A stretch of 64,000 bases of DNA from Zygnema cylindricum. Lineage: Eukaryota > Streptophyta > Zygnematophyceae > Zygnematales > Zygnemataceae. Shown in pieces: positions 415 through 64,000 of the stretch. Under the pieces are notes generated by a model, which searched no databases, had not been told where the DNA came from, and worked only from the letters and a program-made list of their open reading frames with translations. Made by a program: the position numbers and the translations under genes. Position 1 is the first letter of the stretch. The number at the start of each line of letters is the position of its first letter. Location: assembly GCA_037447655.1 (NCBI GenBank), contig JBBHKE010001118.1:1-64000 (forward strand). The letters run 5' to 3'.

Positions 415-437
415 GATACACTCTCAGAAGCTATCAA
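356..437 (-). repeat. Family C LTR, last ~80 bp (unit C0)
   Basis: The final part of a family C LTR in minus orientation, ending in ACA at 356 next to the primer site 346-355. It breaks at 436-438, where family A LTR sequence begins at a point about 390 bp into that LTR. The junction has 2-3 bp of shared sequence, consistent with a deletion that removed the rest of this LTR and the head of the A1 LTR. Confidence 0.75.
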
Positions 438-1158
438 ATTTAACGTTGCGATCGACGGTTCGCAAAGGAGAACGAATTTCAAGCAGTAAACACGGAATGT
501 TGACCGTCGAAAATCAACCGTCAACACGAAACTTTGACCGGTGAAATTCAACGGTCAATATTTATTCGGCGCACCGTGAGATCCAACGGCTGAAATCGAT
601 CGCCGTTAAACAAACGAACGGCATGCATGAGTGCCGGTATGCCGAAACTACTATATGGGAGCAGTTCGGCGAAATGGGAGGAAATGACACGTGGCATCAT
701 CCTATTGGATGCCGGAAGAGAAAAGGGAAAGAATGACGTTGACCTATTTGCCACGTGGCAGACCAAGAGTGGTGCCGAATATATCCGTATATAAAGTACG
801 GCGACTTCTGTACTTTATTTGTACGATAGTTAGGGTACTCTATTTTGATTGGTTTAGAATAGCTATTAGGAGTTTTTCAGGACTTAGAAAAATATTGAAA
901 AGTCCTCTCTCTCCTAGAGGCCATCTGTACAAATATGTTGTCTTTGAACAGCCATAAGTTAATGCTTAGGTGAGCAAATTCAGTGATTCTTTTTGCAGCG
1001 GACTCAGGGGAGTCCACACTACACAAAGGTGTATTTAGTAAGTGTTTTGCGTCTCAGGGTGGGACTTCTTCATTGTCAAATTCAAAAGTGCATATACTAT
1101 ACTAAAGGTTTCATATAAGCTGGACATTCTGTGTACCAATGGAGGTCACAGAATTACA
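436..1158 (+). repeat. A1 5' LTR (truncated)
   Basis: Matches A2 5' LTR from 22420 onward and ends in ATTACA directly before the primer site. It retains the promoter portion: paired G-boxes, TATA, GTAC cluster and CCAAT box. The gag ATG (1139) lies 20 nt inside its 3' end. The tRNA-like module present in the full LTR is in the missing part. Confidence 0.85.
688..854 (+). promoter_or_regulatory. Family A U3 promoter motifs
   Basis: Seen in order: CACGTGGC (688-695), GCCACGTGGC (750-759), TATATAAA (788-795), four GTAC cores (796, 810, 821, 835), and TTGATTGGTT (845-854), an inverted CCAAT box. The same order of G-box, GTAC cluster and CCAAT box recurs in B and F LTRs. Plant bZIP proteins bind ACGTGGC and SBP-domain proteins bind GTAC. 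Use of these sites here is inference. Confidence 0.55.
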
Positions 1159-2280
1159 GGTTATGGGCCCACCCTCTAGGGAACCCATTTTTAATGGAAG
1201 AAGGTTCATTTATTGGGAAACCATGATGAAGGGTGCATTGTTTGAAAAACGGATCTGGGGCATTGTGAGTGGCTGTGTGCGTCGGCCATCCGCTAAAATG
1301 GGAGTTCCACCAGGGTTTGGAGGATCTCGGTTCACTGAAGGATTTGCAAGGGCACAGGGGGTGGAGGATGTTGCTGAAAGCACCATGTCGGACAAATGGA
1401 AGGAGAAAATCACACCGATGGCTAGTGGAACGGCTCCAGTAGCACGTGTTCAGAAAATAGAGGCAAATAATACTGAAATATGTGATTTCAACAATACCGT
1501 GGCAACTCATTTTATTATCGGGCGTCTCACTGAGGGAGTGGGTACACCTCATCTTCATGTGGAGAGGGCAAACGAGTTGTGGGAAGCCCTTGTCGACATT
1601 TACAAGAGCTGTACGATTCAGCAGCAGAAGCAGGCAGATCAGAAGGTACAGGCATATGTGTACAAAGAGGGAAGATGTTAGATTTCTGTAATGATTTGGC
1701 TGGGTTATTCATGGAGTTAGAAAGTGTAGGAAAAAGGGAGACTCAGAAAGAGAAGGTGAAACTTTGCTAATGAAACTCCCAGATGATTATGAGAACATGG
1801 TTAACACGGTCCACGATTTGTCAGATCATCAATGGATCTAGAATTCTGTTGTGGGGATGATTTTGGTTCGGGAAATCACAATTGAGATTCGTAGGGGAGG
1901 AAAGAGTGTTCAAGCATTGGCTACTAGTACTGACTGGGGGGATAAGGATTCCAAGAAACCTTATGGGAACTTTGGTGGAGGAGGAAGAGGAAACCATGAC
2001 GGATCTACACCAAGGGCTTCGAAGGGGCTTTGCCATTCTTGTAAGAAGCCGGGACACTACATGGCGGAGTGCACTAAGTTGACGGAGTTGAGATTGAAGG
2101 AGGAATAGACTGGAAAACCATCCGGAAGGAAAAAGATGGCGTTCGTTGCTTCACAATTCGTGGAAGAGGATGCCGATGATGACGATGGAGAACTTCTTCT
2201 CAATGAAGAGTTGGAGGTGAAAGGTGAGCCGGAGATTCCAAGAAGGCAAAAGTGTGCTTTTGGTGGAGTGAAACAAGCTC
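1139..2280 (+). pseudogene. A1 gag (capsid and nucleocapsid), broken
   Basis: The start codon at 1139 lies inside the 5' LTR. The N-terminal region reads MEVTELQVMGPPS followed by FIYWETMM, resembling the FDG-x-xYxxW start of copia Gag. A C-terminal CCHC zinc knuckle, CHSCKKPGHYMAEC, is at 2031-2072. A frameshift near 1676, a stop near 1840 and TAG at 2106-2108 divide it. A serine- and acid-rich linker follows to about 2280 before protease. A2 carries the same breaks. The intact protein would package element RNA into virus-like particles in the cytoplasm. Confidence 0.8.
1159..1171 (+). promoter_or_regulatory. Primer binding site, initiator tRNA-Met anticodon-arm type (A1)
   Basis: GGTTATGGGCCCA begins at the first base after the LTR. 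It is the reverse complement of the universal initiator tRNA-Met anticodon stem-loop (TGGGCCCATAACC), not of a tRNA 3' end. That matches the half-tRNA priming of Drosophila copia and yeast Ty5. It is also translated as part of Gag (V-M-G-P). Confidence 0.8.
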
Positions 2281-3900
2281 CTGAAGAAGGATGGATCATT
2301 GATTCAGGGGCCACTTTGCATATGTGTAGAGAAAAAACATTGTTTACCAAAATGAGAAAGATCCCTACTGTAGAGATAAAGTATGGAGATGGGAGGATAG
2401 TGACTACTAATTCAGTGGGATCAGTAGATCTGAGGGTCCTAGTTGATGGAAAGACATCTATCGTCACTTTCTCTGATGTTATTTTTATTCCGGAGCTGAA
2501 CTAAAATCTTATCTCTACGTCGGTCTTAAATGATAAAGGCTTTGAGTCTAGTACTAAGAAAGGAGTCTTTCTTGCTAGCTATGAGAAGAAAGTGTACTTC
2601 ACAGCTGAAAAAGGTAGCCAAGGAATGTTTAGGCTAAATTTGAGTAATGGAAAGGCGGGAGTTTACTATGCTGGCGTAAGTGATTTGATGATGTGGCACA
2701 AAATATTGGGACATGTGAATCTAGATAGATTGAAAGAAATGAAGAAAATGGGTATAGTTGAGGGAATACATTTTGAGGATAATGAGACTTTGGATGATTT
2801 TAGTGGGTGCGCACAAGGAAAAGCCCACAGATTGCCTTTTCCAAAGGTTACAACATATAAGGGTGAAAAGGTTTTAGATTTGGTTCACACTGACATGTGG
2901 GACCGGCCAAAGTGCTATCAGTTAGAGGGAAAAGATTTACGCTACCTATCACTGATTATTTGTCTAGATACTCTAGAGTATATTCTTGAAAAACAAATTT
3001 GAGGCTTCGGCTTATTTTAAAGAGTATAAAGCATGGAGTGAAAAGCTCCATGAGACACGTATAAAAAGAGTGAAGAGTGATAATGGGGGGGAATTCACTT
3101 CTAATGAGTTTGAGGATTATTTGAAAGAGGAAGGGGTTCAACACCAAAAGACTGTCCCAAAGAATCCAGAACAAAACGGTGTAGCTGAGAGACTAAATCG
3201 GACTCTAAGTGATAGTGCCCGTAGTATGTTGACGGATAAAAAGATAAAGAAATTTTTTTGGGCAAAAGCTATGAATTGTGCTAACTATCTCAAAAATAGA
3301 GTCCTTACTTCGGCTATAAAAGGCCAAACACCTTATGAAAGATGGACCGGAAGAAAACCAAATATTTCACATTTAAAGGTGTTTGGAAGTCAAGTGTTTA
3401 GTCTAAACACAGAAAAATCTGATTGGAAGTTAGATGTTAGAGGAAAGCCGGGATACTTACTTGGATATGATGTAAATGTAAAGGGATATAGAGTTTATGA
3501 TCTCGGAAGAGAAGACATAATTCTAGTAAAACACCTGGTAGTTATGGATGAGGGAAAGTCCATAGATCCCTTTAAGTACACCAAATCGGTGAGGATTAGA
3601 ATTGAATCCGAAAATGAGTTAGATTCAGATTCTTATAATCGAACTCAAGTTCAGCCTGACCTTGCAGAAGAAGAGGAAAAATTGACCAAGAGTGACTCTC
3701 TCTTGGAGCCACAACATCCGGTTCAAACCGAGGAAGAACCGAGGAAAGACCAGGAATGGATGATGAACGTCCTGAGATGGACTCCACGGATAGTGGAGAA
3801 GGTGAAGTTATTCGGAGAATCCCAAGATTACCCTCTATCCCAGCGTCGGAGTTTGAAAGAGGAAGGAGAAGCAGTAAGAGACTTTGAGAGAGACAAGTGA
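2280..3900 (+). pseudogene. A1 protease and integrase, broken
   Basis: The aspartic protease motif is WIIDSGATLHMC, with catalytic DSG at 2301-2309. TAA at 2502-2504 ends this piece. The GAG-pre-integrase HHCC zinc domain is at about 2690-2840 (HKILGHVN, then CAQGKAH). Around 2890-3000 a frame change garbles the segment between the first catalytic Asp (HTDMW) and the core. The core then continues with SDNGGEFTSNEF and PEQNGVAERLNRTL (about 3076-3210), giving the second D and the E of D,D-35-E. The C-terminal GYxxxxKGYRVYDL segment follows and TGA closes at 3898-3900. Shared with A2. Confidence 0.82.
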
Positions 3901-5516
3901 ACAACAAGGTAACTAAGCTGTCACATTTGAGTGAACCCCAGACTCACTCGGAAGCAGTTAATAGTCTAGAAGGTGATAGATGGGTGATAGTTATTAATGA
4001 TGAGATGGCTTCTATTATGGAAGCAAACACATGGGAGTTGGTGGATTGTCCTCCAGATAGAAAGCCGATAAGATGCAAGTGGGTATTTAAGTTATAGCTC
4101 AACCCAGATAACACTATCAAGCGATACAAGGCCAGATAAGTGGCAAAGGGGTTCACACAGAAGGAGGGGATTGATTATGAGGAGACTTTTGCTCCGGTTG
4201 TTAGATTCCCCTCTGTTCGGATTCTACTTAGTCTCGCGGCAGCGGAAAACATGGAGGTGCACCAGATGGACATCAAAACTGCTTTCTTACATAGAGAATT
4301 GGAAGAAGAGATCTTCATGCGACAACCAGAAGGATTTGTGGAGAAAGGCGAGGAAAGCAAGGTGTGCAGATTGATAAAGTCCCTTTATGGACTAAAGCAA
4401 GCTCCACGCCAATGGAACAAAAACTGGACGAGTTTTTGACGAGTTTGGGATATATTCGAATCAGTTCGGATCATTCTATCTACTTATTTGAGGATGAGGA
4501 AGGTATAATTTTCATTGCCATATATGTTGATGATTTGCTTGTTTTGAGTAAATCAATGGAGAAAATAAATAGATTGAATAAGGATCTAAAATGTAGATTT
4601 GAAATGAAAGATTTGGGAGGGGCAAAGTACATCTTGGGAATTCAAATGGAGAGATATAGAGAAAAGAAAACAATTAGACTAACTCAAAAGAAAGCAATTG
4701 GGAATATGCTTGAAAAATTTCAAATGGAAAAAGCAAATAGTTGTACGACTCCAATGGACTTACAGAAGGGAAATGAGGGGAGCTCAGAAGAGGGGGTCTC
4801 GATCCTAGATAACGAGCTAGGACCTGAGGAAAGGAAGTTCATGCAAACTATTCTGTACAGAAAAGTTGTCGGTAGTTTGATCTACTTTATGAATTGTACG
4901 CGTCTCGTATAGTTGCAGCTGTGGGAGTATTAAGTAGGAGTCTGAATGATCCTGGGAAGAAAGATTGGGAAGCCGCCAAAGGGTCATGCAATACTTGATA
5001 GGAACGAGAGATCTATGTTTGCATTTGGCAGGGGATAATACTAACATCACCACTTGGAGTGATGCTAGTTATAGGGATGCTCCGATGAGGAGGTGTACTT
5101 CTGGGTATGTGTTGTAAGCTGGGAATAAGGCTTACTGTAGGAGCAGTAAGCAACAAAAGGTGATTGCTCAGTCCACCATGGAGGCTGAGTATATGGTCTC
5201 TTGTTCGGCTGTGAAAGAATTGATGTGGCTAAAATCTTTGCTTCAACAATTAGGATATATGAAGAGCGAAGTGCAAAAAATATTTTGTGACAATCAAGCT
5301 GCGATTGCAATTGCAGCAAACCCTAAGCATCACTTTAAAGCAAAGCATATGGATATTCGTTTGAGCTTTGTTAGAGAGAAGGTTGAGAATAAAATAATTA
5401 GTTTGGAATATAGACCGGATGGAGAGATGGTAGCAGATATGATGACTAAGCCGGTTCCTTCTCCCAAATTAAAATTTTGTAGGGAGAGGTGTGGACTGAA
5501 AGAAAAGCTAGACTAG
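3897..5516 (+). pseudogene. A1 reverse transcriptase and RNase H, broken
   Basis: RT begins with WELVDCPPDRKPI and CKWVFKL, is stopped by TAG at 4095-4097 and TAA at 4138-4140, and resumes with [18 protein letters not shown] and MDIKTAFLH. The catalytic YVDDLL is intact (4523-4540). RNase H carries AQSTMEAEYM, FCDNQAAIAIAANPKHH and MDIRLSFVREKV. Frameshift near 4437 and stops at 4911 and about 5115 break it. The C-terminus ADMMTKPVPSPKLKFC is typical of copia RNase H tails. Residue conservation is high despite the stops, suggesting recent decay or amplification of an already broken copy. Confidence 0.85.
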
Positions 5517-5529
5517 AAAATAAAGGGAG
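5517..5529 (+). other. Polypurine tract (A1)
   Basis: AAAATAAAGGGAG immediately before the 3' LTR; the A2 and B1 counterparts are AAAATAAGGGGAG. It would prime plus-strand DNA synthesis. Confidence 0.7.
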
Positions 5530-6643
5530 GGTTGAAAAATAGATATTTTATGTTCTATCTTTTTGGGTCCTGCAGTTCTCATACTTGTCGTAGTCACTGA
5601 GAATTGGCAGGCAGCCATGTCTGCCTTACACAGATGAGAAGATAGAAAGAAGATTAGGCTCATGCAAAAGAAATATTGCCACAATCAGGAATTGATCCTT
5701 AACCTCCGGACAACAACCGTACGATGATGTCGCTTGCTTTAACCAAAAGGTCTTGATGAATCGTGACATTCATTGTATTTGATATATATTTAAACTCATA
5801 TCTACAGCACATTCCATTTAACATCCTACGAAACGAAACGCAACATAGAACGTATGGTACCGCACAAAATGCAGTACCGCACGAAATTAATGAAACAAAC
5901 ATTTAATTTCGATGGACGAAATAAAAATGTCGCGATCGACGGTTCGCAAAGTGAGAACAAATTTCAAGCGGTAAACACGGAATGTTGACCGTCGAAATTC
6001 AACGGTCAACACGGAACTTTGACCGGTGAAATTCAATGGTCAACATTTATTCGGCGCACCGTGAGATCCAACGGCTGAAATCGATCGCCGTAAAACGAAC
6101 GAACGGCATGCATGAGTGCCGGTATGCCGGAACTACTATATGGGAGCAGTTCGGCAAAATGGGAGGAAATGACACGTGGCATCATCCTATTGGATGACGG
6201 AAGAGAAAAGGGACAGAATGACGTTGACCTATTTGCCACGTGGCAGACCAAGAGTGGTGCCGAATATTTCCGTACATAAAGTACAGCGGCTTTTGTACTT
6301 TATTTGTATGATAGTTAGGGTACTCTACTTTGATTGGTTTAGAATAGCTATTAGGAGTTTTTCAGGAGTTAGAAAAATATTGAAAAGTCCTCTCTCTCCT
6401 AGAGGCCATCTGTAGAAATATGTTGTCTTTGAACAGCCATAAGTTAATGCTCAGGTGAGCAAATTCAGTGATTCTTTTTGCAGCGGACTCAGGGGAGTCC
6501 AAGCTACACAACGGTGTAGTCAGTCAGATTTTTGCGTCCCAGTGTGGGACTTATTGATTGTCAAAGTCAAAAGTGCATATACTATCCTTGAGGCTTCATA
6601 TAAGCTGGACATTCTCTGTACCAATGGAGGTCAAAATATTACA
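5530..6643 (+). repeat. A1 3' LTR (full, 1114 bp)
   Basis: Begins GGTTGAAAAATAG (TGTTGAAAAATAG in A2, first base mutated) and ends ATTACA. Modules in order are the conserved head box CTTGTCGTAGTCACTGAG (about 5585), an antisense tRNA-like block (5685-5753), paired CACGTGGC boxes, a GTAC cluster with CCAAT box, and the gag start region at the end. The last ~25 bp encode the first Gag residues in the 5' copy. Confidence 0.9.
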
Positions 6644-17571: not shown

Positions 17572-18741
17572 TGAAACTCTCTGTGCTCCATTGCCTACAC
17601 AAATCGCAGATCCAAAAGAAGCTTATCTAGATAGTGCCGACTCCAAGTTGATATAAACCCAAATGACTGACCCCTTCACAAAATCAAACCCATTATAGCT
17701 TCACCCTTGTGAAATAAGACTTTGTGTGTGCTTAATTCTAGCATAGAATGCAAAGTTAGAATATGAGTTTTGGACACATTCACCCATTTTGAATTTCCCT
17801 TAGAACTGCAACCACCCTAGCAGGCAAAAAATCTGACCGATTACACCCCTGTGTAGCTTGGACTCCCCTGAGTCCACAACAAAAAGAATCATGAAAATGG
17901 TCAAGTAAATTGATCGTTATGGCTGGCCAAAGTTTGCTATTTATACAAGGTGCTCTCTAGGAGAGGCAGCTACCTACCCAAAATATTTGAAGTCCTATTC
18001 CCCCTCTAAAACTCTATCTACTAAAGTACGGAACCAATCAAATTACTATGTCGTACAAGAAGAACAGGTGCCGGTGTACTTTATGTACGGCCATTGTACA
18101 ACATGGCCAAAATGTTGACACGGGTCAAATTAGGATTTGTTCCTGTATTCTCCGGAGTTCTCGTAATCCAATGTTATCACGCCACGTGTCATGTGACGTG
18201 GAAAATACCGTAAAACGCCAAAAATACCTCTTCTATGATCGCGGCGCCTATCGCGGCCGTCCGATCAAAACCGGTTATAATCCTAGCCGCTGAAATTCGA
18301 CGCGCGCTATTTGTTTCGCTATCGAAACAAATGCGCGGTATCCGTTCCATCACTATACGGTACTCTGTACTAAATAAAATTGTATTTATGCACTAAATAT
18401 CCATTATCCGTTAAACGAATTAATCTACGTGTAATAGTTTATTTATTTATCAAACACCACATATTCTAATATTATTCCTAGACTTAACTGTTAGAGCTAA
18501 TGGCTACGCCAATTTGAGGGACAGCAAGTACCAGGATCAATTCCTGGGTCCGTCAAGTACATTTTGGTAAATCTAGCTAATCCACCCCTTGTCTTCTTTA
18601 GTGAGCTTAGATGCCATTGCTCTAGCTCCCTATCAAGCCTTTAGTGACTACAACAAGTGTGGGGGCTTGGAGAAGGGAGTCACGAACAAACTACCTTTGC
18701 TCTTTTTCTATAAAGACCTAGAAAATACTCAAATATCAACA
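17572..18741 (-). repeat. F1 3' LTR (left copy)
   Basis: Read on the minus strand it begins TGTTGATATTTGAG at 18741, preceded by purine tract TAAAATTAGGGGAG (18742-18755), and ends GTTTCA at 17572. It carries the head box (near 18650), the tRNA-like block (about 18485-18560), ACGTGG boxes near 18185-18200, a GTAC cluster and CCAAT box near 18030-18100. Confidence 0.88.
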
Positions 18742-18806
18742 CTCCCCTAATTTTATAGTCTACTTCCTTTCAACTCTTACAAACAAATAAACAAACACTC
18801 CTTCCC

Positions 18807-19922
18807 TTATTTCCTTTTTCTTTTTAATTTTCCTTTATAAAACTTAAGAAAAATACTCTCGTATTTAAAACAATGCATTAGATGAACTGAAATAATAATT
18901 ACATCACACATTTCATTTAGCACCCCACTTATCATAAATCCGATCAAAGATTTTATCCACCTCCTCCCCTTTTCATCCAACCAGAATCTACTTTCCCTTT
19001 TGCATTTCCAACAGTCAGCCCCATCCCTAACTTGCAACACATACCCGGATGATAACCCTTTTACAGGCACATCTTCACAAGCGACATCACACCAAGTAGT
19101 GATGTCAAATCCATCCACCCCCAAATATTCCCAAAAAACACTAGTCCCCACTAAGTTCCTCATAAGATCTACATCTTCCGTACTCATATTTTTATCCATG
19201 ATAATTACCCCATTTTCTGAACTTCCCTCACTCTCTCCCATGGAATTCTTTCCACTATCACTTTCTATTTTAATTCCCAATAAATATTTTTTCTCCCCTA
19301 AACCTTTAGTCAAATATTTCTCTTCTCCCCTATCCTTTAAAAACCCCTCTAGAATTAATTCTCCCCTTTCCTCGGAATCCGTTGAAGTCTCCCTTTCCGA
19401 CCAGTTTTCTGTTTCCAAAATATCTATGAAACAATCCTCAATATTTTGAACTCCCTCAAGTATCTCCTCTCTCTTTACTTCCCTTATACCTCCAAAAGCA
19501 CACTGTTGCTTTCGTGGAATTTCTGTGTGCTTTTCTCTCTTCCCCATACTACTAATCCGGAGAAGCTCTAAAATATCTTCATCCTCTTTCTCCTCTTCCC
19601 CTTCTTCCTCCTCATCCACATTCCAACTTCTAAGTTTTTCCAAACAAGGGCATTCCTCCATATAATGACCCGGTTCCCTACAAAAGAAGCAAACCCCCTT
19701 TTTCAAAGCTCCCCTTTCTTTTCCTCTCCGTCTCTTTCTACCAAAGTTCCGATAAGGTTTACCTTTGTCTTTCTTCCTCTCGTCACGCTTCCGCCAATCA
19801 CCACCAGCTTTAAATGCATTCACTCTGTCACTTCCCCTACGAAGCTCCAAAGTGCTTTCCCTCACAAGAATTATCCCAAGGGTAAAGCTCCAAGTCCACG
19901 AGGAGACATCGATTGCTTGCAT
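18807..19922 (-). CDS. F1 ORF2: nucleocapsid fused to RT/RNase H remnants (371 aa)
   Basis: Open for 371 codons from ATG at 19922, two codons after a stop. The N-terminus matches the Gag midsection of A and B (ILVRESTLELRRG). A basic stretch and zinc knuckle CFFCREPGHYMEEC follow at about residues 78-91. After the linker IPRKQQCAFGGIRE, where A and B go on into protease, it jumps to acidic sequence and then to recognisable pieces: GEKKYLLGIKIESDSGK (end of RT), ITTWCDVACEDVPV and SSGYVLQV (RNase H start), then a garbled RNase H end rich in K/R. Catalytic residues of protease, integrase and RT are absent. Staying open across several deletion joints is unusual in a window where larger copies are full of stops. 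It may act as an RNA-binding Gag piece; expression is not shown. Confidence 0.65.
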   Translation of the reverse strand: MQAIDVSSWTWSFTLGIILVRESTLELRRGSDRVNAFKAGGDWRKRDERKKDKGKPYRNFGRKRRRGKERGALKKGVCFFCREPGHYMEECPCLEKLRSWNVDEEEEGEEEKEDEDILELLRISSMGKREKHTEIPRKQQCAFGGIREVKREEILEGVQNIEDCFIDILETENWSERETSTDSEERGELILEGFLKDRGEEKYLTKGLGEKKYLLGIKIESDSGKNSMGESEGSSENGVIIMDKNMSTEDVDLMRNLVGTSVFWEYLGVDGFDITTWCDVACEDVPVKGLSSGYVLQVRDGADCWKCKRESRFWLDEKGRRWIKSLIGFMISGVLNEMCDVIIISVHLMHCFKYESIFLKFYKGKLKRKRK

Positions 19923-19925
19923 ACG

Positions 19926-22030: not shown

Positions 22031-23142
22031 TGTTGAAAAATAGATATTTTATCTTCTATCTTTTTGGGTCCTGCAGTTCTCATACTTAACGTAGTCACTG
22101 AGAATTGCCATGCAGCCATGTCTGCCTTACACAGATGAGGAGATAGGCAGAAGATTAGGCTCTTGCAAAAGAAATATTGCCACAGTCAGGAATTGATCCC
22201 TAACCTCCGGACAACAACCGTACGATGATGTGGCTCGCTTTAACCGTCAGGTCTTAATGAATCGTGACATTCATTGTATCTGATATATATTTAAACTCAT
22301 ATCTACGGCACATTCCATTTAACATCATACGAAACGAAACGCAACATGGAACGTATGGTACCGCACAAAATGCAGTACCGCATGAAATTAATGAAACAAA
22401 CATTTAATTTCGACGGACCAAATTTAATGTTGCGATTGACGGTTCGCAAAGGAGAACAAATTTCAAGCGGTAAACATGGAATGTTGACCGTCGAAATTCA
22501 ACCGTCAACACGGAACTTTGACCGGTGAAATTCAACGGTCAATATTTATTCGGCGCACCGTGTGATCCAACGGCTGAAATCGATCGCAGTAAAACAAACG
22601 AACGGCATGCATGAGTGCCGGTATGCCGGAACTACTATATGGGAGCAGTTCGGCGAAATGGGAGGAAATGACACGTGGCATCATCCTATTGGATGCCGGA
22701 AGAGAAAAGGGAAAGAATGACGTTGACCTATTTGCCACGTGGCAGACCGGAGTGGTGCCGAATATATCCGTATATAAAGTACGGCGGCTTCTATACTTTA
22801 TTTGTACGATAGTTAGGGTACTGTATTTTGATTGGTTTAGGATAGCTATTTGGATTTTTTCAGGACTTAGAAAAATATTGAAAAGTCCTCTCTCTCCCAG
22901 AGGCCATCTGTACAAATATGTTGTCTTTGAAAAGCCATAACTTAATGCTCAGGTGAGCAAATTCAATGATTCTTTTTGCAGCGGACTCAAGGGAGTCCAC
23001 ACTACACAAGGGTGTATTTAGTAAGTGTTTTTGCGTCTCAGGGTGGGACTTCTTCATTGTCAAATTCAAAAGTGCATATACTATCCTAAAGGCTTCATAT
23101 AAGCTGGACATTTTGTGTACCAATGGAGGTCACAGAATTACA
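22031..23142 (+). repeat. A2 5' LTR (1112 bp)
   Basis: Begins TGTTGAAAAATAG and ends GAATTACA, followed by the primer site (23143-23155). Holds head box, tRNA-like block (22187-22253), paired G-boxes (near 22673 and 22737), TATATAAAG near 22773 and the GTAC/CCAAT group. Gag ATG at 23123. Confidence 0.92.
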
Positions 23143-24270
23143 GGTTATGGGCCCACCCTCTAGGGAACCCATTTTTAATGGAAGAAGGTTCATTTATTGG
23201 GAAACCATGATGAAGGGTGCATTGTTTGAAAAACGGCTCTGGGGCATTGTGAGTGGCTCTCTGCGTCAGCCATCCGCTAAATTGGGAGTTCCACCAGGGT
23301 TTGGAGGATCTCGGTTCACTTGAGGATTTGCAAGGGCACAGGTGGTGGAGGATGTTGCAGAAAGCACCATGTCGGACAAAGGGAAGGAGAAAATCACACC
23401 GATGGCTAGTGGAACGGCTCCAGTAGCACCTGTTCAGCAAAATAGAGGCAAATGATACTGAAATCTGTGATTTCAACAATACCGTGGCAACTCATTTTAT
23501 TCTCGGCCATCTCACTCTGAGAGTGGGTACACCTCATCTTCATGTGGAGAGGGCAAACGAGTTGTGGGAAGCTCTTGTCGACATTTACAAGAGCTGTACG
23601 ATTCAGCAGCAGAAGCAGGCAGATCAGAAGGTATAGGCATATGTGTACAAAGGGGGAAGATGTTAGATTTCTGTAATGATTTGGCTGGGTTATTCATGGA
23701 GTTAGAAAGTGCAGGAAAAAGGGAGACTGAGAAAGAGAAGGTGAAACTTTGCTAATGAAACTCCCAGATGATTATGAGAACATGGTTAACACGGTCCATG
23801 ATTTGTCAGATCATCAATGGATCTAGAATTCTGTTGTGGGGATGATTTTGGTTTGGGAAAGCACAATTGAGATTTGTAGGGGAGGAAAGAGTGTTCAAGC
23901 ATTGGCTTTTAGTACTGAATGGGGGGATAAGGATTCCAAGAAACCTTATGGGAACTTTGGTGGAGGAGGAAGAGGAAACCATGACGGATCTACACCAAGG
24001 GCTTCGAAGGGGCTTTGCCATTCTTGTAAGAAGCCGGGACACTACATGGCGGAGTGCACTAAGTTGACGGAGTTGAGATTGAAGGAGGAATAGACTGGAA
24101 AACCATCCGGAAGGAAAAAGATGGCGTTCGTTGCTTCACAATTCGTGGAAGAGGATGCCGATGATGACGATGGAGAACTTCTTCTCAATGAAGAGTTGGA
24201 GGTGAAAGGTGAGCCGGAGATTCCAAGAAGGCAAAAGTGTGCTTTTGGTGGAGTGAAACAAGCTCCTGAA
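23123..24270 (+). pseudogene. A2 gag, broken
   Basis: Same domain order as A1 gag: MEVTELQVMGPPS start in the LTR, capsid-like region, zinc knuckle CHSCKKPGHYMAEC (about 24016-24057), acidic linker. Beyond the lesions shared with A1 it has private ones: an early stop at 23321-23323, a 1-base insertion near 23445 and TAG near 23635. Confidence 0.8.
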
Positions 24271-25885
24271 GAAGGATGGATCATTGATTCAGGGGCCACT
24301 TTGCATATGTGTAGAGAAAAAACATTGTTTACCAAAATGAGAAAGATCCCTACTGTAGAGATAAAGTATGGAGATGGGAGGATAGTGACTACTAATTCAG
24401 TGGGATCAGTAGATCTGAGGGTCCTAGTTGATGGAAAGACATCTATCGTCACTTTCTCTGATGTTATTTTTATTCCGGAGCTGAACTAAAATCTTATCTC
24501 TACGTCGGTCTTAAATGATAAAGGCTTTGAGTCTAGTACTAAGAAAGGAGTCTTTCTTGCTAGCTATGAGAAGAAAGTGTACTTCACAGCTGAAAAAGGT
24601 AGCCAAGGAATGTTTAGGCTAAATTTGAGTAATGGAAAGGCGGGAGTTTACTATGCTGGTGTAAGTGATTTGATGATGTGGCACAAAATATTGGGACATG
24701 TGAATCTAGATAGATTGAAAGAAATGAAGAAAATGGGTGTAGTTGAGGGAATACATTTTGAGGATAATGAGACTTTGGATGATTTTAGTGGGTGCGCACA
24801 AGGAAAAGCCCACAGATTGCCTTTTCCAAAGGTTACAACATATAAGGGTGAAAAGGTTTTAGATTTGGTTCACACTGACATGTGGGACCGGCCAAAGTGC
24901 TATCAGTTAGAGGGAAAAGATTTACGCTACCTATCACTGATTATTTGTCTAGATACTCTAGAGTATATTCTTGAAAAACAAATTTGAGGCTTCGGCTTAT
25001 TTTAAAGAGTATAAAGCATGGAGTGAAAAGCTCCATGAGACACGTATAAAAAGAGTGAAGAGTGATAATGGGGGGGAATTCACTTCTAATGAGTTTGAGG
25101 ATTATTTGAAAGAGGAAGGGGTTCAACACCAAAAGACTGTCCCAAAGAATCCAGAACAAAACGGTGTAGCTGAGAGACTAAATCGGACTCTAAGTGATAG
25201 TGCCCGTAGTATGTTGACGGATAAAAAGATAAAGAAATTTTTTTGGGCAGAAGCTATTAATTGTGCTAACTATCTCAAAAATAGAGTCCTTACTTCGGCT
25301 ATAAAAGGCCAAACACCTTATGAAAGATGGACCGGAAGAAAACCAAATATTTCACACTTAAAGGTGTTTGGAAGTCAAGTGTTTAGTCTAAACACAAAAA
25401 AATCTGATTGGAAGTTAGATGCTAGAGGAAAGCCGGGATACTTACTTGGATATGATGTAAATGTAACTGGATATAGAGTTTATGATCTCGGAAGAGAAGA
25501 CATAATTCTAGTAAAACACCTGGTAGTTATGGATGAGGGAAAGTCCATAGATCCCTTTAAGTACACCAAATCGGTGAGGATTAGAATTGAATCCGAAAAT
25601 GAGTTAGATTCAGATTCTTCTAATCGAACTCAAGTTCAGTCTGACCTTGCAGAAGAAGAGGAAAAATTGACCAAGAGTGACTCTCTCTTGGAGCCACAAC
25701 ATCCGGTTCAAACCGAGGAAGAACCGAGGAAAGACCAGGAATGGATGATGAACGTCCTGAGATGGACTCCACGGATAGTGGAGAAGGTGAAGTTATTCGG
25801 AGAATCCCAAGATTACCCTCTATCCCAGCGTCGGAGTTTGAAGGAGGAAGGAGAAGCAGTAAGAGACTTTGAGAGAGACAAGTGA
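24270..25885 (+). pseudogene. A2 protease and integrase, broken
   Basis: Protease WIIDSGATLHMC (DSG about 24286-24294), stop at 24487-24489, HHCC domain, garbled segment near 24890-24985, integrase core SDNGGEFTSNEF and PEQNGVAERLNRTL, and tail GYLLGYDVNVTGYRVYDL, ending at TGA 25883-25885. All main breaks sit at A1 positions plus 21,985. Confidence 0.82.
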
Positions 25886-27501
25886 ACAACAAGGTAACTA
25901 AGCTGTCACATTTGAGTGAACCCCAGACTTACTCGGAAGCAGTTAATAGTCTAGAAGGTGATAGATGGGTGATAGTTATTAATGATGAGATGGCTTCTAT
26001 TATGGAAGCAAACACATGGGAGTTGGTGGATTGTCCTCCAGATAGAAAGCCGATAGGATGCAAGTGGGTATTTAAGTTATAGCTCAACCCAGATAACACT
26101 ATCAAGCGATACAAGGCCAGATAAGTGGCAAAGGGGTTCACACAGAAGGAGGGGATTGATTATGAGGAGACTTTTGCTCCAGTTGTTAGATTCCCCTCCG
26201 TTCGGATTCTACTTAGTCTCGCGGCAGCGGAAAACATGGAGGTGCACCAGATGGACATCAAAACTGCTTTCTTACACGGAGAATTGGAAGAAGAGATCTT
26301 CATGCGACAACCAGAAGGATTTGTGGAGAAAGGCGAGGAAAGCAAGGTGTGCAGATTGATAAAGTCCCTTTATGGACTAAAGCAAGCTCCACGCCAATGG
26401 AACAAAAACAGGACGAGTTTTTGACGAGTTTGGGATATATTCGAATCATTTCGGATCATTCTATCTACTTATTTGAGGATGAGGAAGGTATAATTTTCAT
26501 TGCCATATATGTTGATGATTTGCTTGTTTTGAGTAAATCAATGGAGAAAATAAAAAGATTGAATAAGGATCTAAAATGTAGATTTGAAATGAAAGATTTG
26601 GGAGGGGCAAAGTACATCTTGGGAATTCAAATGGAGAGATATAGAGAAAAGAAAACAATTAGACTAACTCAAAAGGAAGCAATTGGGAATATGCTTGAAA
26701 AATTTCAAATGGAAAAAGCAAATAGTTGTACGACTCCAATGGACTTAAAGAAGGGAAATGAGGGGAGCTCAGAAGAGGGGGTCTCGATCCTAGATAACGA
26801 GCTAGGACCTGAGGAAAGAAAATTCATGCAAACTATTCCGTACAGACAAGTTGTCGGTAGTTTGATCTACTTTATAAATTGTACGCGTCTCGTATAGTTG
26901 CAGCAGTGGGAGTCTTAAGTAGGAGTCTGAATGATCCTAGGAAGAAAGATTGGGAAGCCGCCAAAGGGTCATGCAATACTTGATAGGAACGAGAGATCTA
27001 TGTTTGCATTTGGCAGAGGATAATACTAACATCGCCACTTGGAGTGATGCTAGTTATGGGGATGCTCCGATGAGGAGGTGTACTTCTGGATATGTGTTGT
27101 AAGCTGGGAATAAGGCTTACTGTAGGAGCAGTAAGCAACAAAAGGTGATTGCTCAGTCCACCATGGAGGCTGAGTATATGGCCTTTTGTTCGGATGTGAA
27201 AGAATTGATGTGGCTAAAATCTTTGCTTCAACAATTAGGATATATGAAGAGCGAAGTGCAAAAAATATTTTGTGACAATCAAGCTGCGATTGTGATTGCA
27301 ACAAATCCAAAACATCACTTTAAAGCAAAGCATATGGATATTTGTTTGAGCTTTGTTAGAGAGAAGGTTGAGAATAAAATAATTAGTTTGGAATATAGAC
27401 CGGATGGAGAGATGGTAGCAGATATGATGACTAAGCCAGTTACTTCTCCCAAATTTAAATTTTGTAGGGAGAGGTGTGGACTGAAAGAAAAGCTAGACTA
27501 G
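25882..27501 (+). pseudogene. A2 reverse transcriptase and RNase H, broken
   Basis: RT with WELVDCPPDRKPIGCKWVFKL, TAG at 26080-26082, [36 protein letters not shown], and YVDDLL near 26508-26525. RNase H has AQSTMEAEYMAF, FCDNQAAIVIATNPKHH and MDICLSFVREKV (R to C in the MDIR motif). Stops and frameshifts match A1. Purine tract AAAATAAGGGGAG at 27502-27514. Confidence 0.84.
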
Positions 27502-27514
27502 AAAATAAGGGGAG

Positions 27515-28623
27515 TGTTGAAAAATAGATATTTTATGTTCTATCTTTTGTTTTTGGGTCATGCAGTTCTCATACATGTCGTAGTCACTGAGAATTAGCAT
27601 GCAGCCATGTCTGCCTTAGACAGATGAGGAGATAGGTAGAAGATTAGGCTCCTGCAAAAGTAGTGTTGCCACAGTCAGGAATTGATCCAAAAACTTCAAG
27701 ACAACAGCCGTACGATCTTGGCGCCCGCCTTATCCGTCAGGTTTTGATGAATCGTTACATACATAGTATCTGATATTTATTTAAAGTCATATCTACGACA
27801 CATTCCATTTAACATCGTACGAAACGAAACGCAACAAGGAACGTATGGTACCGCACAAAATGCAGTACCGCACGAAATTAATGAAACAAACATTTAATTT
27901 CGACGGACGAAGTTAAATGTCGCGATCGACGGTTCGCAAAGCCATAACGAATTTCAAGCGGTAACACGGAATGTTGACCGTCGAAATTCAACGGTCAACA
28001 CGAAACTTTGACCGGTGAAATTCAACGGTCAACATTTATTCGGCGCGCCGTCAGATCCAACGGTTGAAATTGATCTCCGTAAAAAGAACGAACGGCACAC
28101 ATGAGTGCCAGTATGTCGGAACTACTATATGGGAGAAGGTATGCGAAGTGGGAGGAAATGACACGTGGCATCATCTTATTGGATGCCGGAAGAGGAAAGG
28201 GACAGAATGACGATGACCTATTTGCCACGTGGTAGACCGGGAGTGGTGCCGAATATATTCGTACATAAAAGTATGGCGTCTTTTGTACTTTATATGTACG
28301 ATAGTTAGGGTACTCTATTTTGATTGGTTTAGAATAGCTATTAGGAGTTTTTAGGACTTGAGAAAGTCCTCTCTCTCTCAGAGGCCATCTGTACAAATAT
28401 ATTGTCTTTGAACATCCATAACTTAATGCTCACGAGAGCAAATTCAGTGATTCTTTTTGCACCAGACTCAAGGGAGTCCAGGCTACACAAAGGTGTAGTC
28501 AGTCAAAGATTTTGCGTCCTAGGGTGAGACTTATTCATTGTCAAAGTCAAAAGTAAATATACTATCCTAGAGGCTTCATATAAGCTGGACATTCTGTGTA
28601 CCAATGGAGGTCACAAAATTACA
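27515..28623 (+). repeat. A2 3' LTR, shared with A3 as 5' LTR
   Basis: Begins TGTTGAAAAATAG and ends AAATTACA at 28623, followed directly by a primer site and gag of A3 instead of target DNA. It differs visibly from the A2 5' LTR, more than the two B1 LTRs differ from each other. Confidence 0.88.
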
Positions 28624-56443: not shown

Positions 56444-57141
56444 TCTTGAAAAGGAAACTTTAGTAAGTCTTATAAATTTTAGTCCGACTTAGAATATTTT
56501 TGGAATACCAACTATTCAATATTGACCAAATTTAGTGTGGATTTTTTGTAATGCCTACTCGAATAGTTATCTTAAAGTAAATTAGTGTGAAGGGCCCCAA
56601 TAAATGTGGACGTGATAAGAATCACCCGGATTTTTAGGGTATACAATTCTTAGTGGACAATTCTGGTCCAAGCAATTAGATTTTTGTTAGTAAGTTGTTT
56701 GGTGAACCCTGTACATACGTTTTGGATATTTTGAGGATCTTTAGAGTATTTAATTCAATTAGGAATGATTTGTTTGACACAGAATGTACATTCTACACAG
56801 AGTTAAGGAAATAAGAGCACTAAAGCCTGTTTAAGGTGATTTGTGTTATATTCTCCTTGATTTGCTTGTTGTATATGTTTGTCAGGTTGAAAGACCTCTT
56901 TCATTTGTAGTTACGTATCTTACAGTTTTAAGCTAGTCTGATAGGTATTTTTCTTTGGATTTGCTTCCACTAATATGTATGATAATGGCATGTCGGATAA
57001 TGGTTCAGCTCTTGTTGGAAGTGCTCCTATTAGCTCTGGTGCTCCACCTGCTCCTTTAGGGACGAATATCCCATCTGGTGCAAGTGTGACTCCTAGTGGG
57101 AGTGGATCACAACCGAGTCTATATGCCCATGACCTTCAACA
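56444..57141 (+). repeat. D 5' LTR
   Basis: Begins TCTTGAAAAGG and ends CTTCAACA. Gag ATGs at 56975 and 56990 lie about 150-165 nt inside the LTR, so some 50 Gag codons (Ser/Gly/Pro-rich, SGAPPAPLG) are LTR-encoded. No tRNA-like block or G-box pair was seen, unlike A/B/F. Confidence 0.85.
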
Positions 57142-61252: not shown

Positions 61253-61939
61253 TATTGAAAAGTCAGCTTTATTAAATCTTGGAAATTTGAGTCTAAGAAT
61301 TAAAATATTTTTGGAATACCAACTATTCAATATTGACCAAATTTAGTGTGGATTTTTTGTAGTACCTACACGAATAGCTTTCTTTAAGTAAATTGGTGTG
61401 AAGGGCCGCTAATGAATGTGGACGTGATAAGAATTACCCGAATTTTTAGGGTATAGACATTGTTACAGGATAATACTGGTCCAAACAATTAGATTTTTGT
61501 TAGTAGGTTGGCTGGTGAACCCTCTACATATGTTTTAGATATTTTGAGGATCTTTATAGTATTTAATTCAATTAGGAATGATCAGTTTGACACAGAATGT
61601 ACATTCTACACAGAGTTAAGGAAATGAGAGCACTAAGTGCAGTTTAAGGTGATTTGTGTTCTATTGTCCTTGATTTGCTTGTTGTATATGTTTGTCAGGT
61701 TGAAAGACCTCTTTCATTTGTAGTTACATATCTTACAGTTTTAAACTAGTCTGATAGGTATTCCTCTTTGGGTTTACTTTTGCTAATATGTCGGATAACA
61801 GCTCAGCTCCTGTTGCAAGTGCTCCTATTAGCTCTAGTGCTCCACCTGCTCCTTTAGGGACGAATATCCCAGCGGATGCAAGAGTTACTCTTAGTGGGAG
61901 TGGATCACAACAGAGTTTATATGCCAATGACATTCAACA
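61253..61939 (+). repeat. D 3' LTR, PPT 61239-61252
   Basis: After AAACTTAAGGGGAG it begins TATTGAAAAGTCAG (second base changed from G to A) and ends ATTCAACA, followed by AAATT. Aligns with the 5' LTR throughout, with visible scattered differences, pointing to an older insertion than B1. Confidence 0.87.
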
Positions 61940-61960
61940 AAATTTGACCTAAGGTAATTA

Positions 61961-62629
61961 ATGGAATATGAGTCAGTTGAGTCTGAACTGAATTTCTACA
62001 GACAGCTAAAAGCATAATCTAGACGACAATCCGAAAAGTTACGTGGCAATCCACAATGTACCCCCCACTAGGGTTGGCAGTAATGGGTCCCATGTAACGG
62101 AATTGCAATTTTTGAGACGGTAAAACTTCGTTGTCCGGCCTCCGTTAGGCGCGAATTAAAGCGCGTTCTGCTCAGTTTAGGAAATACAAGATATCGCCCG
62201 GCTGGGTGCACCCCCTCCTCTGTACTCTGATGACCGTACAAGTGGGAAATGCTCGGAAATCCTTGGTGGTATTAAGGTGTGCTGAAAACGCACACAAACT
62301 TCACAAGCTTGAACAAGAAACCACTGCGGGTGGTGATGACAATGATATCATGGGGTAGGATATGGAGCCTCCAAAGGCCCACCATGCACGAACTTTTGCC
62401 TCAGGTTGGGAATGTAGGAATTGGGGACAACCGTCGTCAGTTACGTACCACCACCTCGGAGCGAAGGAAGGAAAATCTGAAAATAGACCAAAGAGACCAT
62501 AGCCGAAAAGTTACTACACCCATATCTTTTACTCCTCGGGGCATGATGCTTAATAGGGCATTAGGCCTCGGATTAAAGCTAACCCAACTGCCTCCACCTC
62601 GCAAAAAGAAACTGCCCCCAGGTTTCTAA
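61961..62629 (+). pseudogene. Gag-like region of the DNMT-bearing element
   Basis: A single frame from ATG 61961 to TAA 62627 with several stops in its first half and 116 open codons at the end (62279-62629). Charged and basic composition: SVESELNFYRQLKA, SERRKENLKIDQRDHSRK, LPPPRKKKLPPGF. It lies directly upstream of a retropepsin, the position of Gag in LTR retrotransposons. No recognised domain or zinc knuckle. The 61945-61960 bases are D-flank sequence. Confidence 0.4.
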
Positions 62630-62879
62630 AATTATCAGACAGATAAATAGAAACAGTTGGAAAAGGAGGCCATAGACATGTGGTTTGAGAAATACATAGC
62701 TAAACAACTTGATGACACACCACCTGGCACTCCGTGATCGCATATTCAAGTGACGAGAAAAAATAGACAAGGGAGGACACCACAAAAACTCAACCTCTAT
62801 CCTCGAAACCACAGGTAATGTTAGTACGGCACCTGATGCCGTTGGCAATTACAAACGTAAAAACACTCGCCTCCTCCCA

Positions 62880-63428
62880 TAATCAGCCAGAAGATATGTT
62901 GATTTAGGCCTTGGGGAAGAAATTCATATGAAAAAGGAAAAAGTAGCACTAGCAAAGCCGGCTAGTAAAGCCTTCTTATCCTCGGAACCCAAAACCCCTA
63001 TATTGGATAGGGATTATAAAAAGATATCCTTGGCACTCATCCTCAACCGGACGCAAAATTTCAAGGTAAATGGATAAAGAGGATACCAAGACGACGTAGT
63101 CGATACCGGATTACTACCCAATCTGATCACCACATCCGCTATACAACAGATGCATAAAGAACTCTAGTCAAAAATCAGATCCAATAACATTTGCGTGAGT
63201 ACGGTCTGCAGTAGCAACCACCCGGTGCACGGGATCATCGAAGAGATGACCATTGAATTTTTCGATGACGCGGGTCAACAAGTCCGGATCCATTTTCCCT
63301 TCCTGGTGGTGGAAGGTAAGCAGTTTGAAATTCTGGTAGGCATGGACACTTGGACACGGCTAAATATGAAATTAAGTGTGTGGAAAGAACAATTTACTAT
63401 TACGGATCCTAAAAATCTGGAAGGATGA
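62880..63428 (+). pseudogene. Retropepsin-like aspartic protease, with in-frame stops
   Basis: In one frame: a lead-in (RYVDLGLGEEIHMKKEK, ILDRDYKKISLALILN), TAA at 63075-63077, DDVVDTGLLPNLITTSAI with the catalytic DTG at 63102-63110, TAG at 63165-63167, then CVSTVCSSNHPVHGIIEEMTIEFF, FPFLVVEGKQFEILVGMDTW (the psi-loop/ILG-like end of retropepsins near 63330-63356), WKEQFTITDP, TGA at 63426. The order flap region then hydrophobic-G-x-D is that of retroelement proteases, but the sequence is unlike the copia proteases (DSG/DTGASAHMC) in this window, so the element belongs to another class, probably Gypsy-like. It would process the polyprotein. Confidence 0.65.
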
Positions 63429-64000
63429 AGGGTTGTAATACCCTTAGACTTATGGAATAGGGGAAGGATAAATGTTGTGGTTTCCAAATGTTACGCTGTA
63501 TACACAACCAGAACTTCAGAACTATTCGCCAATGCCTCAGATATTGCAAAAACAATCTAGCAATTCTCAATTTCCAAGCGGTGGGAAGAAGGATAACAAA
63601 AAAGATTACTGCAGATTTCCCAACTTCGGCAGGAAGTGGCACATACATTTTCAGCTATTGTAATAAGACAACAGAATACAACACTTTGACCGAAAACTTT
63701 ACAAGATCTATCTGACAAAGTTCAATTAAACTGACAATTAGTGTCATTAACGATTCCAAAGACAGGAATCCTGATATTATCTCTCTTTTCCGGCATCGGT
63801 TCTTATTTAGAAGCGGTTTTGAAAGCAAGATACCACGTGGAAACCTATACAACCGTGGAAATCTTACCAGAAGCCCAAACTACCAGCGAACACCGCTTGC
63901 AACAGCTTCATTGACTCTATCCTCAACAACTTCTTGTGTCCTCGATATTCGAAGCCCACTTAAATCTACCGCAGAACATAGACAACATCACAGCAAACCA
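63429..64000 (+). pseudogene. C5-cytosine DNA methyltransferase-like domain (N-part) in a retroelement ORF
   Basis: The protease frame continues without a frameshift: linker RVVIPLDLWNRGRINVVVSKCY and a helical QLRQEVAHTFSAIVIRQQN segment, then from about 63753 IPKTGILILSLFSGIGSYLE. SLFSGIG (63780-63800) is the SAM-binding motif I of C5-cytosine methyltransferases. VEILPEAQ (63855-63878) fits motif II, with the acidic residue that binds the SAM ribose. Spacing between the two motifs is as expected. Stops at 63558, 63594, 63687, 63732 and 63912 make this copy dead. The catalytic PCQ (motif IV) and ENV (motif VI) would lie beyond 64000. If intact it would methylate DNA cytosines. Closeness to DNMT3-type versus other DNMTs cannot be judged by eye. 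Linkage to retropepsin argues for capture by a retrotransposon. Confidence 0.62.

Follow-up and report, generated by a model that had tools for sequence, protein, structure and literature searches.

The right end of the stretch of Zygnema cylindricum DNA analysed here (64,000 nucleotides, hereafter the window; positions 1-64000 of the contig called C836) raises a question of gene content and one of gene expression. Motifs of a retropepsin and of a C5-cytosine DNA methyltransferase (DNMT) follow each other there in a frame that is interrupted by stop codons. Do the two belong to one mobile element, and are all of these stops marks of decay?

Protease and methyltransferase motifs at the window end

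The features of the region are listed below; all lie on the forward strand.

61255..61939, +, left neighbour, outside the element: second copia LTR copy, truncated, with adjoining sequence (87% match to 56446-57141)
62284..62734, +, C-terminal part of gag, frameshifted and decayed, approximately residues 1310-1467 of ORF1 of the relative C549 (tblastn of C549 ORF1, 45-49% identity)
62800..63557, +, end of ORF1 with the retropepsin (tblastn, 65-79% to C549 ORF1; weak Pfam matches to RVP_2 and Asp_protease_2)
63099-63122, +, VDTGLLPN, retropepsin DTG motif (translation of 61501-64000)
63330-63347, +, ILVGMD, retropepsin motif in the same frame as DTG (translation)
63558..63566, +, UAG CAA UUC, probable site of readthrough at the conserved stop that separates protease and DNMT (conservation in genome copies)
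63561..64000, +, start of ORF2 (linker and DNMT), continuing past the window end as far as about position 64449 of the contig (tblastn)
63780..63800, +, SLFSGIG, DNMT motif I (methyltransferase profile match in a six-frame window search, E 1.8e-5)
63855..63878, +, VEILPEAQ, DNMT motif II region (within the same profile alignment as SLFSGIG)

The preliminary description of this DNA had placed DTG protease motifs and then SLFSGIG and VEILPEAQ in one frame, and translation reproduced both the single frame and the positions. For the methyltransferase motifs, a pairwise comparison of the window piece with DNMT3A was suggestive but weak (score 48, with 3 of 5,000 shuffles equally high), and a profile was therefore built from human DNMT3A and 14 phage C5-methyltransferases, covering motif I to the PCQ region in 82 positions. 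When the six frames of the window were searched with filters off, the SLFSGIG site was the top match at 21.0 bits, its alignment spanning 44 of the 82 positions (motifs I and II only). The next unrelated site reached 2.2 bits (E 13), and the claim that the motifs exceed chance was thus borne out.

Direct database searches with the window pieces returned little. The protease piece matched RVP_2 (E 0.02), Asp_protease_2 (E 0.034), and gag-asp_proteas in Pfam, all below the cut-offs, and the protease of better-preserved relatives likewise stayed under the Pfam cut-off (Asp_protease_2, E 0.012). The window piece had only a chance match in PDB (Tim9, E 0.63) and no match in IMG/VR, where DNMT3A and ORF2 of the relative C1374 also found none.

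The window copy is an internal, frameshifted fragment that runs from ORF1 residue 1310 to ORF2 residue 287, approximately C836:62284-64449. Its right part was delimited with C1374 ORF2, residues 1-287 of which aligned to C836:63561-64449 in two frames (57% and 39%, tblastn). In-frame stops occupy 9 of 373 codons counted from 62880, or 7 of 307 from 63078. Beyond the window end, WPYQ stands at the PCQ position and is followed by ENV, with a frameshift before motif VIII. The frame first described, from 62880 to the window end without a frameshift, is real, but it does not give the limits of the element, which begins at about 62284, in other frames after frameshifts, and ends at about 64449.

To the left, similarity to copia stops at 61939. 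The repeat pair 56446-57141 and 61255-61939 flanks the last copia element and includes an open frame that begins with MSDNSSAPV and is taken as the start of gag; a second copy of the LTR and gag start would thus lie head to tail after the first copia element and break off at 61939. Positions 1-62000 of the window hold many nested, partly inverted copia copies, two of which (435-6643 and 22419-28623) share 96% identity across 6.2 kb. A 372-codon open frame on the minus strand, at 18807-19925, lies among decayed elements; by eye, it contains a CCHC-like knuckle and pieces resembling copia.

A multicopy family with Gypsy-type domains

The assembled genome (352.8 Mb in 2,689 contigs) was searched with a 189-amino-acid stretch across the stop and the start of the DNMT. 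It yielded 1,147 candidates, and all of the 150 that were scored matched (E at most 4e-49). One of these is the window copy, and the other 149 are 49-60% identical to the window stretch. Another count came from a signature of 24 bases around the stop, in which three free bases replaced the stop codon: with at most two mismatches, it matched 524 sites, and its reversed control matched 6.

Nine relatives and C836 itself were extracted as stretches of 19 to 20 kb. Better-preserved copies have the order gag, protease, UAG, DNMT, RT, RNase H, integrase, and PHD-like finger. ORF1, measured from stop to stop, is longest in C549 (1,754 codons) and has 1,625 codons in C1527, with the DTG protease inside it. 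The whole C1527 ORF1 had no match in Pfam; searched in pieces, it gave a weak protease match, and its knuckle piece gave weak, unrelated matches only (C1_1, E 0.016; HIPIP, E 0.38). The assignment as gag therefore rests on two CCHC knuckles read by eye. ORF2 has 1,520 codons in C1374 and 1,525 in C544 and holds the DNMT and RT in the same Pol frame.

The domain scan of ORF2 covered C1374. In order along the protein, it found DNA_methylase PF00145 (8.2e-13, above the cut-off), RVT_1 (1.3e-28), RT_RNaseH (6.5e-36), Integrase_H2C2 (6.6e-15), rve (6.1e-12), and a C-terminal PHD-like finger, the last with a match of 0.0044, below the Pfam cut-off (17.5 versus 24 bits). The finger is present in eight copies from two subfamilies, among which C746 has lost cysteines; in C1042, the match stops before the finger. 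No tyrosine recombinase is among the nine families listed for C1374 ORF2, and none is listed for C1527 ORF1. By its predicted domains, the family is a DNMT-carrying Gypsy-type retrotransposon. Two subfamilies can be told apart among the nine relatives: over the first part of ORF1, identity to C549 is 56-59% for C1374, C544, and C1920 and at least 77% for the others. Most of the nine carry frameshifts or stops. In the 19-kb stretch extracted for C161, a second, distant Gypsy-like match lies downstream at 18349-19429, with 32-35% identity to ORF2.

Could SLFSGIG and DTG still be chance strings or parts of an unrelated fold, or could an old nested insertion have brought a protease gene and a methyltransferase gene side by side? 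The searches with the window itself would suit such an origin: the 83-amino-acid DNMT piece alone found no match in Pfam, and the decayed window translation found no relative among about 5.8 billion proteins in either of two length ranges (E up to 1; up to 10). However, the profile match in the window, the recurrence of the segment that joins the protease end to the DNMT start at 149 other scored places, and the complete PF00145 domain with PCQ and ENV at the corresponding place in better copies all speak against it. A coincidence is refuted by the multicopy family, and we give it hardly any credence. The identity of the DNMT is firm because of the better-preserved relatives in the same genome.

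The window thus ends in a decayed and truncated member of a Gypsy-type LTR retrotransposon family that carries a DNMT and has hundreds of copies in the genome. This agrees with the class that the preliminary description had assigned, since the relatives carry gag, protease, a full predicted C5-methyltransferase, RT, RNase H, and integrase. That description had also proposed to look to the right for an RT, whose absence within a few kilobases would have spoken against the assignment. The window copy indeed has none there, because it ends at about 64449, while the relatives have it. Of the further motifs expected to the right, ENV is present in the window copy and PCQ is not, and most relatives compared have them; similarly, the proposed PF00145 match was obtained with C1374 ORF2 and not with the window piece alone.

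A conserved UAG between the protease and the methyltransferase

The stop at 63558 is conserved among the copies. When copies not selected by their stop were aligned by the flanking protein, TAG stood at the boundary of protease and DNMT in 34 of 34 distinct copies, a nonrandom sample consisting of the window copy, nine long copies, and 24 others high in the similarity ranking. The context was TAG CAA TTC in 32 of them, and TAG CAA TTT and TAG TAA TTC in one each. In the table of all 150 scored rows, 144 show one or more in-frame TAG codons somewhere in the stretch, which may lie elsewhere than at the conserved site. Among the 100 listed of the 524 signature sites, which are exact matches of the flanks, the free codon was TAG in 92, TAA in 5, and TAC, TCG, and CAG in one each.

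In the 240 columns around the stop, which hold 80 codons, full invariance is confined to two codons, the stop itself and one TGG; mean pairwise identity over positions -60 to +120 is 0.789. In the 30 nucleotides that begin at the stop, third-position conservation reaches 0.92, compared with 0.65-0.81 in the other bins. The type I leaky stop motif is UAG CAR YYA (PMC3542737). The full CARYYA hexamer is not present: CAA UUC, found in 32 of 34 copies, fits five of its six positions and ends in C instead of A. Downstream of the UAG, a short TTCCC/GGGAA hairpin is marginal (RNAalifold z of -2.1 to -2.4, with 4 to 8 of 200 shuffles as low, in a fold that is blind to pseudoknots).

A UAG shared by nearly all copies examined, mostly in the context UAG CAA UUC and close to the leaky context of tobacco mosaic virus, suggests programmed readthrough. 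Most ribosomes would stop at the UAG and produce Gag-Pro, and a minority would read through to give Gag-Pro-DNMT-RT-IN, so that the methyltransferase would be made and packaged at the same low ratio as the polymerase. Judging from the conservation of the codon and its context, such dosing of the DNMT together with the polymerase is the reading that we strongly favor.

The UAG might instead be no readthrough signal, if the host decoded it as an amino acid or if an intron or an internal start yielded ORF2. In favor of this, five copies selected for rows without TAG (three without any stop and two with TAA only) have TAC (3) or TTG (2) at the site, and one listed signature site has CAG; the linker after the UAG is open, which is compatible with internal initiation or splicing. 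However, no TAG occurs inside ORF1 of C549 and C1527 or inside ORF2 of C1374 and C544. Long open frames free of TAG on both sides show that it is no common sense codon and argue against a general reassignment of UAG. In addition, conservation covers the stop together with the bases that follow, as is the case in readthrough contexts. We therefore consider the alternatives to readthrough unlikely.

With readthrough as the preferred reading, the in-frame UAG before the DNMT is, on the strength of the aligned copies, not a product of decay. Among the in-frame stops named in the preliminary description, the one at 63558 is thus a conserved and probably leaky codon. The proposed in-frame fusion holds as far as the shared frame is concerned; rather than a single fused ORF, there are two, split by one conserved UAG.

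Selection on the methyltransferase and its relationships

Among 29 copies, PCQ is kept in 24, ENV in 25, and RAHR[LV]RAYW in 17. We take these to be C5-methyltransferase motifs and place the conserved R of the last one in motif VIII. The better copies thus carry a complete predicted C5-cytosine methyltransferase (PF00145).

Selection was assessed with dN/dS, a ratio that here mixes selection before insertion with decay after insertion. For the DNMT (29 copies), the median was 0.164 over the 123 pairs with dS>0.5, and 0.269 over all unsaturated pairs (400 pairs had dS above 0.05, and 86 were saturated). At dS>0.5, the linker before the DNMT had a value of 0.378 and the spacer after it 0.308. 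The corresponding values in eight or nine copies were 0.174 for the PHD-like finger, 0.029 for the integrase, and 0.021 for the RT. The DNMT is under purifying selection that is less strict than that on RT and integrase. With an RT under so much tighter constraint, the DNMT may be of lesser importance.

The best relatives of the C1374 DNMT domain in PDB were DNMT3A (1.1e-14), HhaI (3.5e-5), tobacco DRM (9.6e-4), and DRM2 (1.3e-3). Its motifs, read by eye, follow the order I-IV-VI-VIII-X and are not rearranged. In a tree of motifs I to VI, the five retrotransposon copies included form one clade (support 100), and backbone nodes near this clade have support of 13 to 41, which gives it no firm position among the methyltransferases.

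The genome also holds DRM-like exons at C2414:27597-27944 and C2414:41546-41893, 14 kb apart, with 49% and 46% identity to the DRM query. The first lies in a 382-codon open frame (L080), in which, by eye, motifs VI and IX-X precede motif I, the DRM order. The host DRM groups with plant DRMs in the tree (support 99), and DRM is stated to be restricted to streptophytes in the available text of PMC12344493; the gene thus points to a streptophyte host.

With such a gene at hand, the element might owe its DNMT to capture of the host DRM, as opposed to a DNMT3 or an enzyme of bacteria or viruses; the long spacing between motifs II and III, read by eye, also resembles DRM. However, the motif order is that of DNMT3 without the DRM rearrangement, DNMT3A is the best solved relative, ahead of both DRM enzymes, and the tree does not place the element DNMT with DRM, the nearby backbone being poorly supported. 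We regard capture from the host DRM as improbable.

Element ends, repeats, and target duplications

The element begins with TGTCAAGC and ends with CACGCTCGACA, which are ends of the TG...CA type. Exact 4-bp target duplications were found in three of nine copies in which both ends were read (C549, CCCT; C161, CAGG; C746, TCCT) and not found in the other six. Such ends and 4-bp duplications fit a DDE integrase and not a tyrosine recombinase. Membership in the DIRS order was considered and rejected, as ORF2 has the rve domain in place of a tyrosine recombinase.

Three copies, C746, C1527, and C1156, have all four repeats of an A-coding-B-GC-A-B arrangement. The two A repeats are 98.0, 89.6, and 90.5% identical in these copies, respectively, and the two B repeats are 98.2, 98.2, and 97.2% identical. 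The joint between the second A and the second B varies among the three, as would be expected if deletions had arisen independently in the second A-B unit. Six copies (C549, C1374, C544, C1042, C1920, and C161) stop after the first B and have no second A or B. In six further copies examined at their predicted ends, three B ends were readable, and all three had the B-GC-A junction, one of them altered. Overall, a B end was readable in 12 copies; the junction is present in 6 of them and absent from the other 6. It forms the palindrome GACA-GC-TGTC and occurs at 348 genome sites with at most two mismatches, compared with 0 in the control.

The repeat-less copies may be recombinants between the first and second B or unit-length insertions. 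An alternative that we hold to be possible, though with less than even chances, is that insertion from a circular DNA intermediate first yields A-coding-B without repeats and that the split-repeat form derives from this product. C549 and C161 lack a second A or B and yet have TG...CA ends with 4-bp duplications, and the palindromic junction looks like that of a circle with joined ends. However, recombination between the two B repeats of the split-repeat form would leave the same product with the same flanks, and the B-GC-A junction is common in the genome.

A tentative life cycle

If the DNMT is packaged with the polymerase, it could methylate the cDNA of the element before or during integration, and the new copy would then arrive marked as host-like or silent DNA. 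This step is tentative and has less support than the readthrough itself. The observed/expected CpG ratio is 0.70-0.81 in the decayed window copy (61940-64000), compared with 0.39 in the adjacent copia element, which does not favor heavy methylation of the window copy. The DNMT of KnitGypsy, a similar element described below, had no activity in yeast, a result that de Mendoza et al. called inconclusive (PMC5890265). Both points count against strong self-methylation.

The PHD-like finger, for its part, might steer integration by reading a histone tail, although we are somewhat more doubtful of this. The full sequence of events is more speculative still: a DNMT dosed by the leaky UAG and packaged would methylate the element's own cDNA, perhaps on a circle joined through GACA-GC-TGTC, and integration would follow at sites read by the PHD-like finger. 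If this were true, the element would place a silencing mark on its own DNA in the course of its life cycle.

Comparison with known systems

In KnitGypsy-Dnmt3, described earlier from the charophyte Klebsormidium nitens (de Mendoza et al. 2018, PMC5890265), the Pol ORF of a Gypsy element encodes a DNMT of the Dnmt3 type, and the repeats resemble those of DIRS. According to the main text of that study, it shares with the present family a nonrearranged C5-DNMT in the Gypsy Pol frame, a DIRS-type repeat structure despite Gypsy domains, and several copies in a streptophyte with the DNMT under purifying selection, for which the threshold used there was a Ka/Ks of <0.2. By analogy, the architecture found here is that of KnitGypsy-Dnmt3 and hence of a known kind; the family, with its 524 signature sites in a 352.8-Mb genome, is likened to it by architecture and not by sequence kinship. 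Unlike KnitGypsy-Dnmt3 as described, it has a conserved UAG that splits Gag-Pro from DNMT-Pol and a PHD-like finger at the end of Pol. The words "PHD" and "readthrough" are absent from the main text of PMC5890265.

SymbioDIRS-Dnmt3 and SymbioLINE-Dnmt of Symbiodinium are likewise retrotransposons with a DNMT, and the former shares the A-coding-B-A-B repeats (PMC5890265). In contrast to the tyrosine recombinase or LINE endonuclease given for these elements in that text, the integrase of the present family is of the DDE type (rve), and the element ends are TG...CA. The same study treats the acquisitions in dinoflagellates and in charophytes as independent. In the literature searched, as far as its text was available, a primary description of DNMT-carrying retrotransposons was found only in PMC5890265, with mentions in PMC12344493 and PMC6338049; according to the latter, in the part available, land plants lack transposons that carry a methylase. 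Among the titles and abstracts listed in a search of mainly open-access literature, none combined LTR readthrough, a PHD on a Gypsy integrase, and Gypsy split repeats.

The arrangement of the stop also has partial counterparts in viruses. In the available accounts, type I readthrough in tobacco mosaic virus uses UAG, CAA, and two pyrimidines, and the UAG precedes the polymerase part, as it does here (PMC3542737). The present family differs in that the hexamer ends in C and not in A, the carrier is a retrotransposon, and the codon separates the protease from the DNMT. With the Gag-Pol of murine leukemia virus, the family shares a single in-frame UAG before the Pol of a retroelement. However, the stop of that virus lies between gag and pol and needs a 3' pseudoknot (PMC4178896, PMC3542737), whereas here it follows the protease and has only a marginal minihairpin. 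Set against these systems, the candidate readthrough codon before a DNMT appears to be new.

Retrotransposons that carry a host silencing enzyme are rare, and the present family is another large one with that architecture. Its conserved UAG offers a direct handle on how an element may dose such an enzyme, and its many copies make it testable whether the DNMT aids transposition, hides the element, or restrains it.
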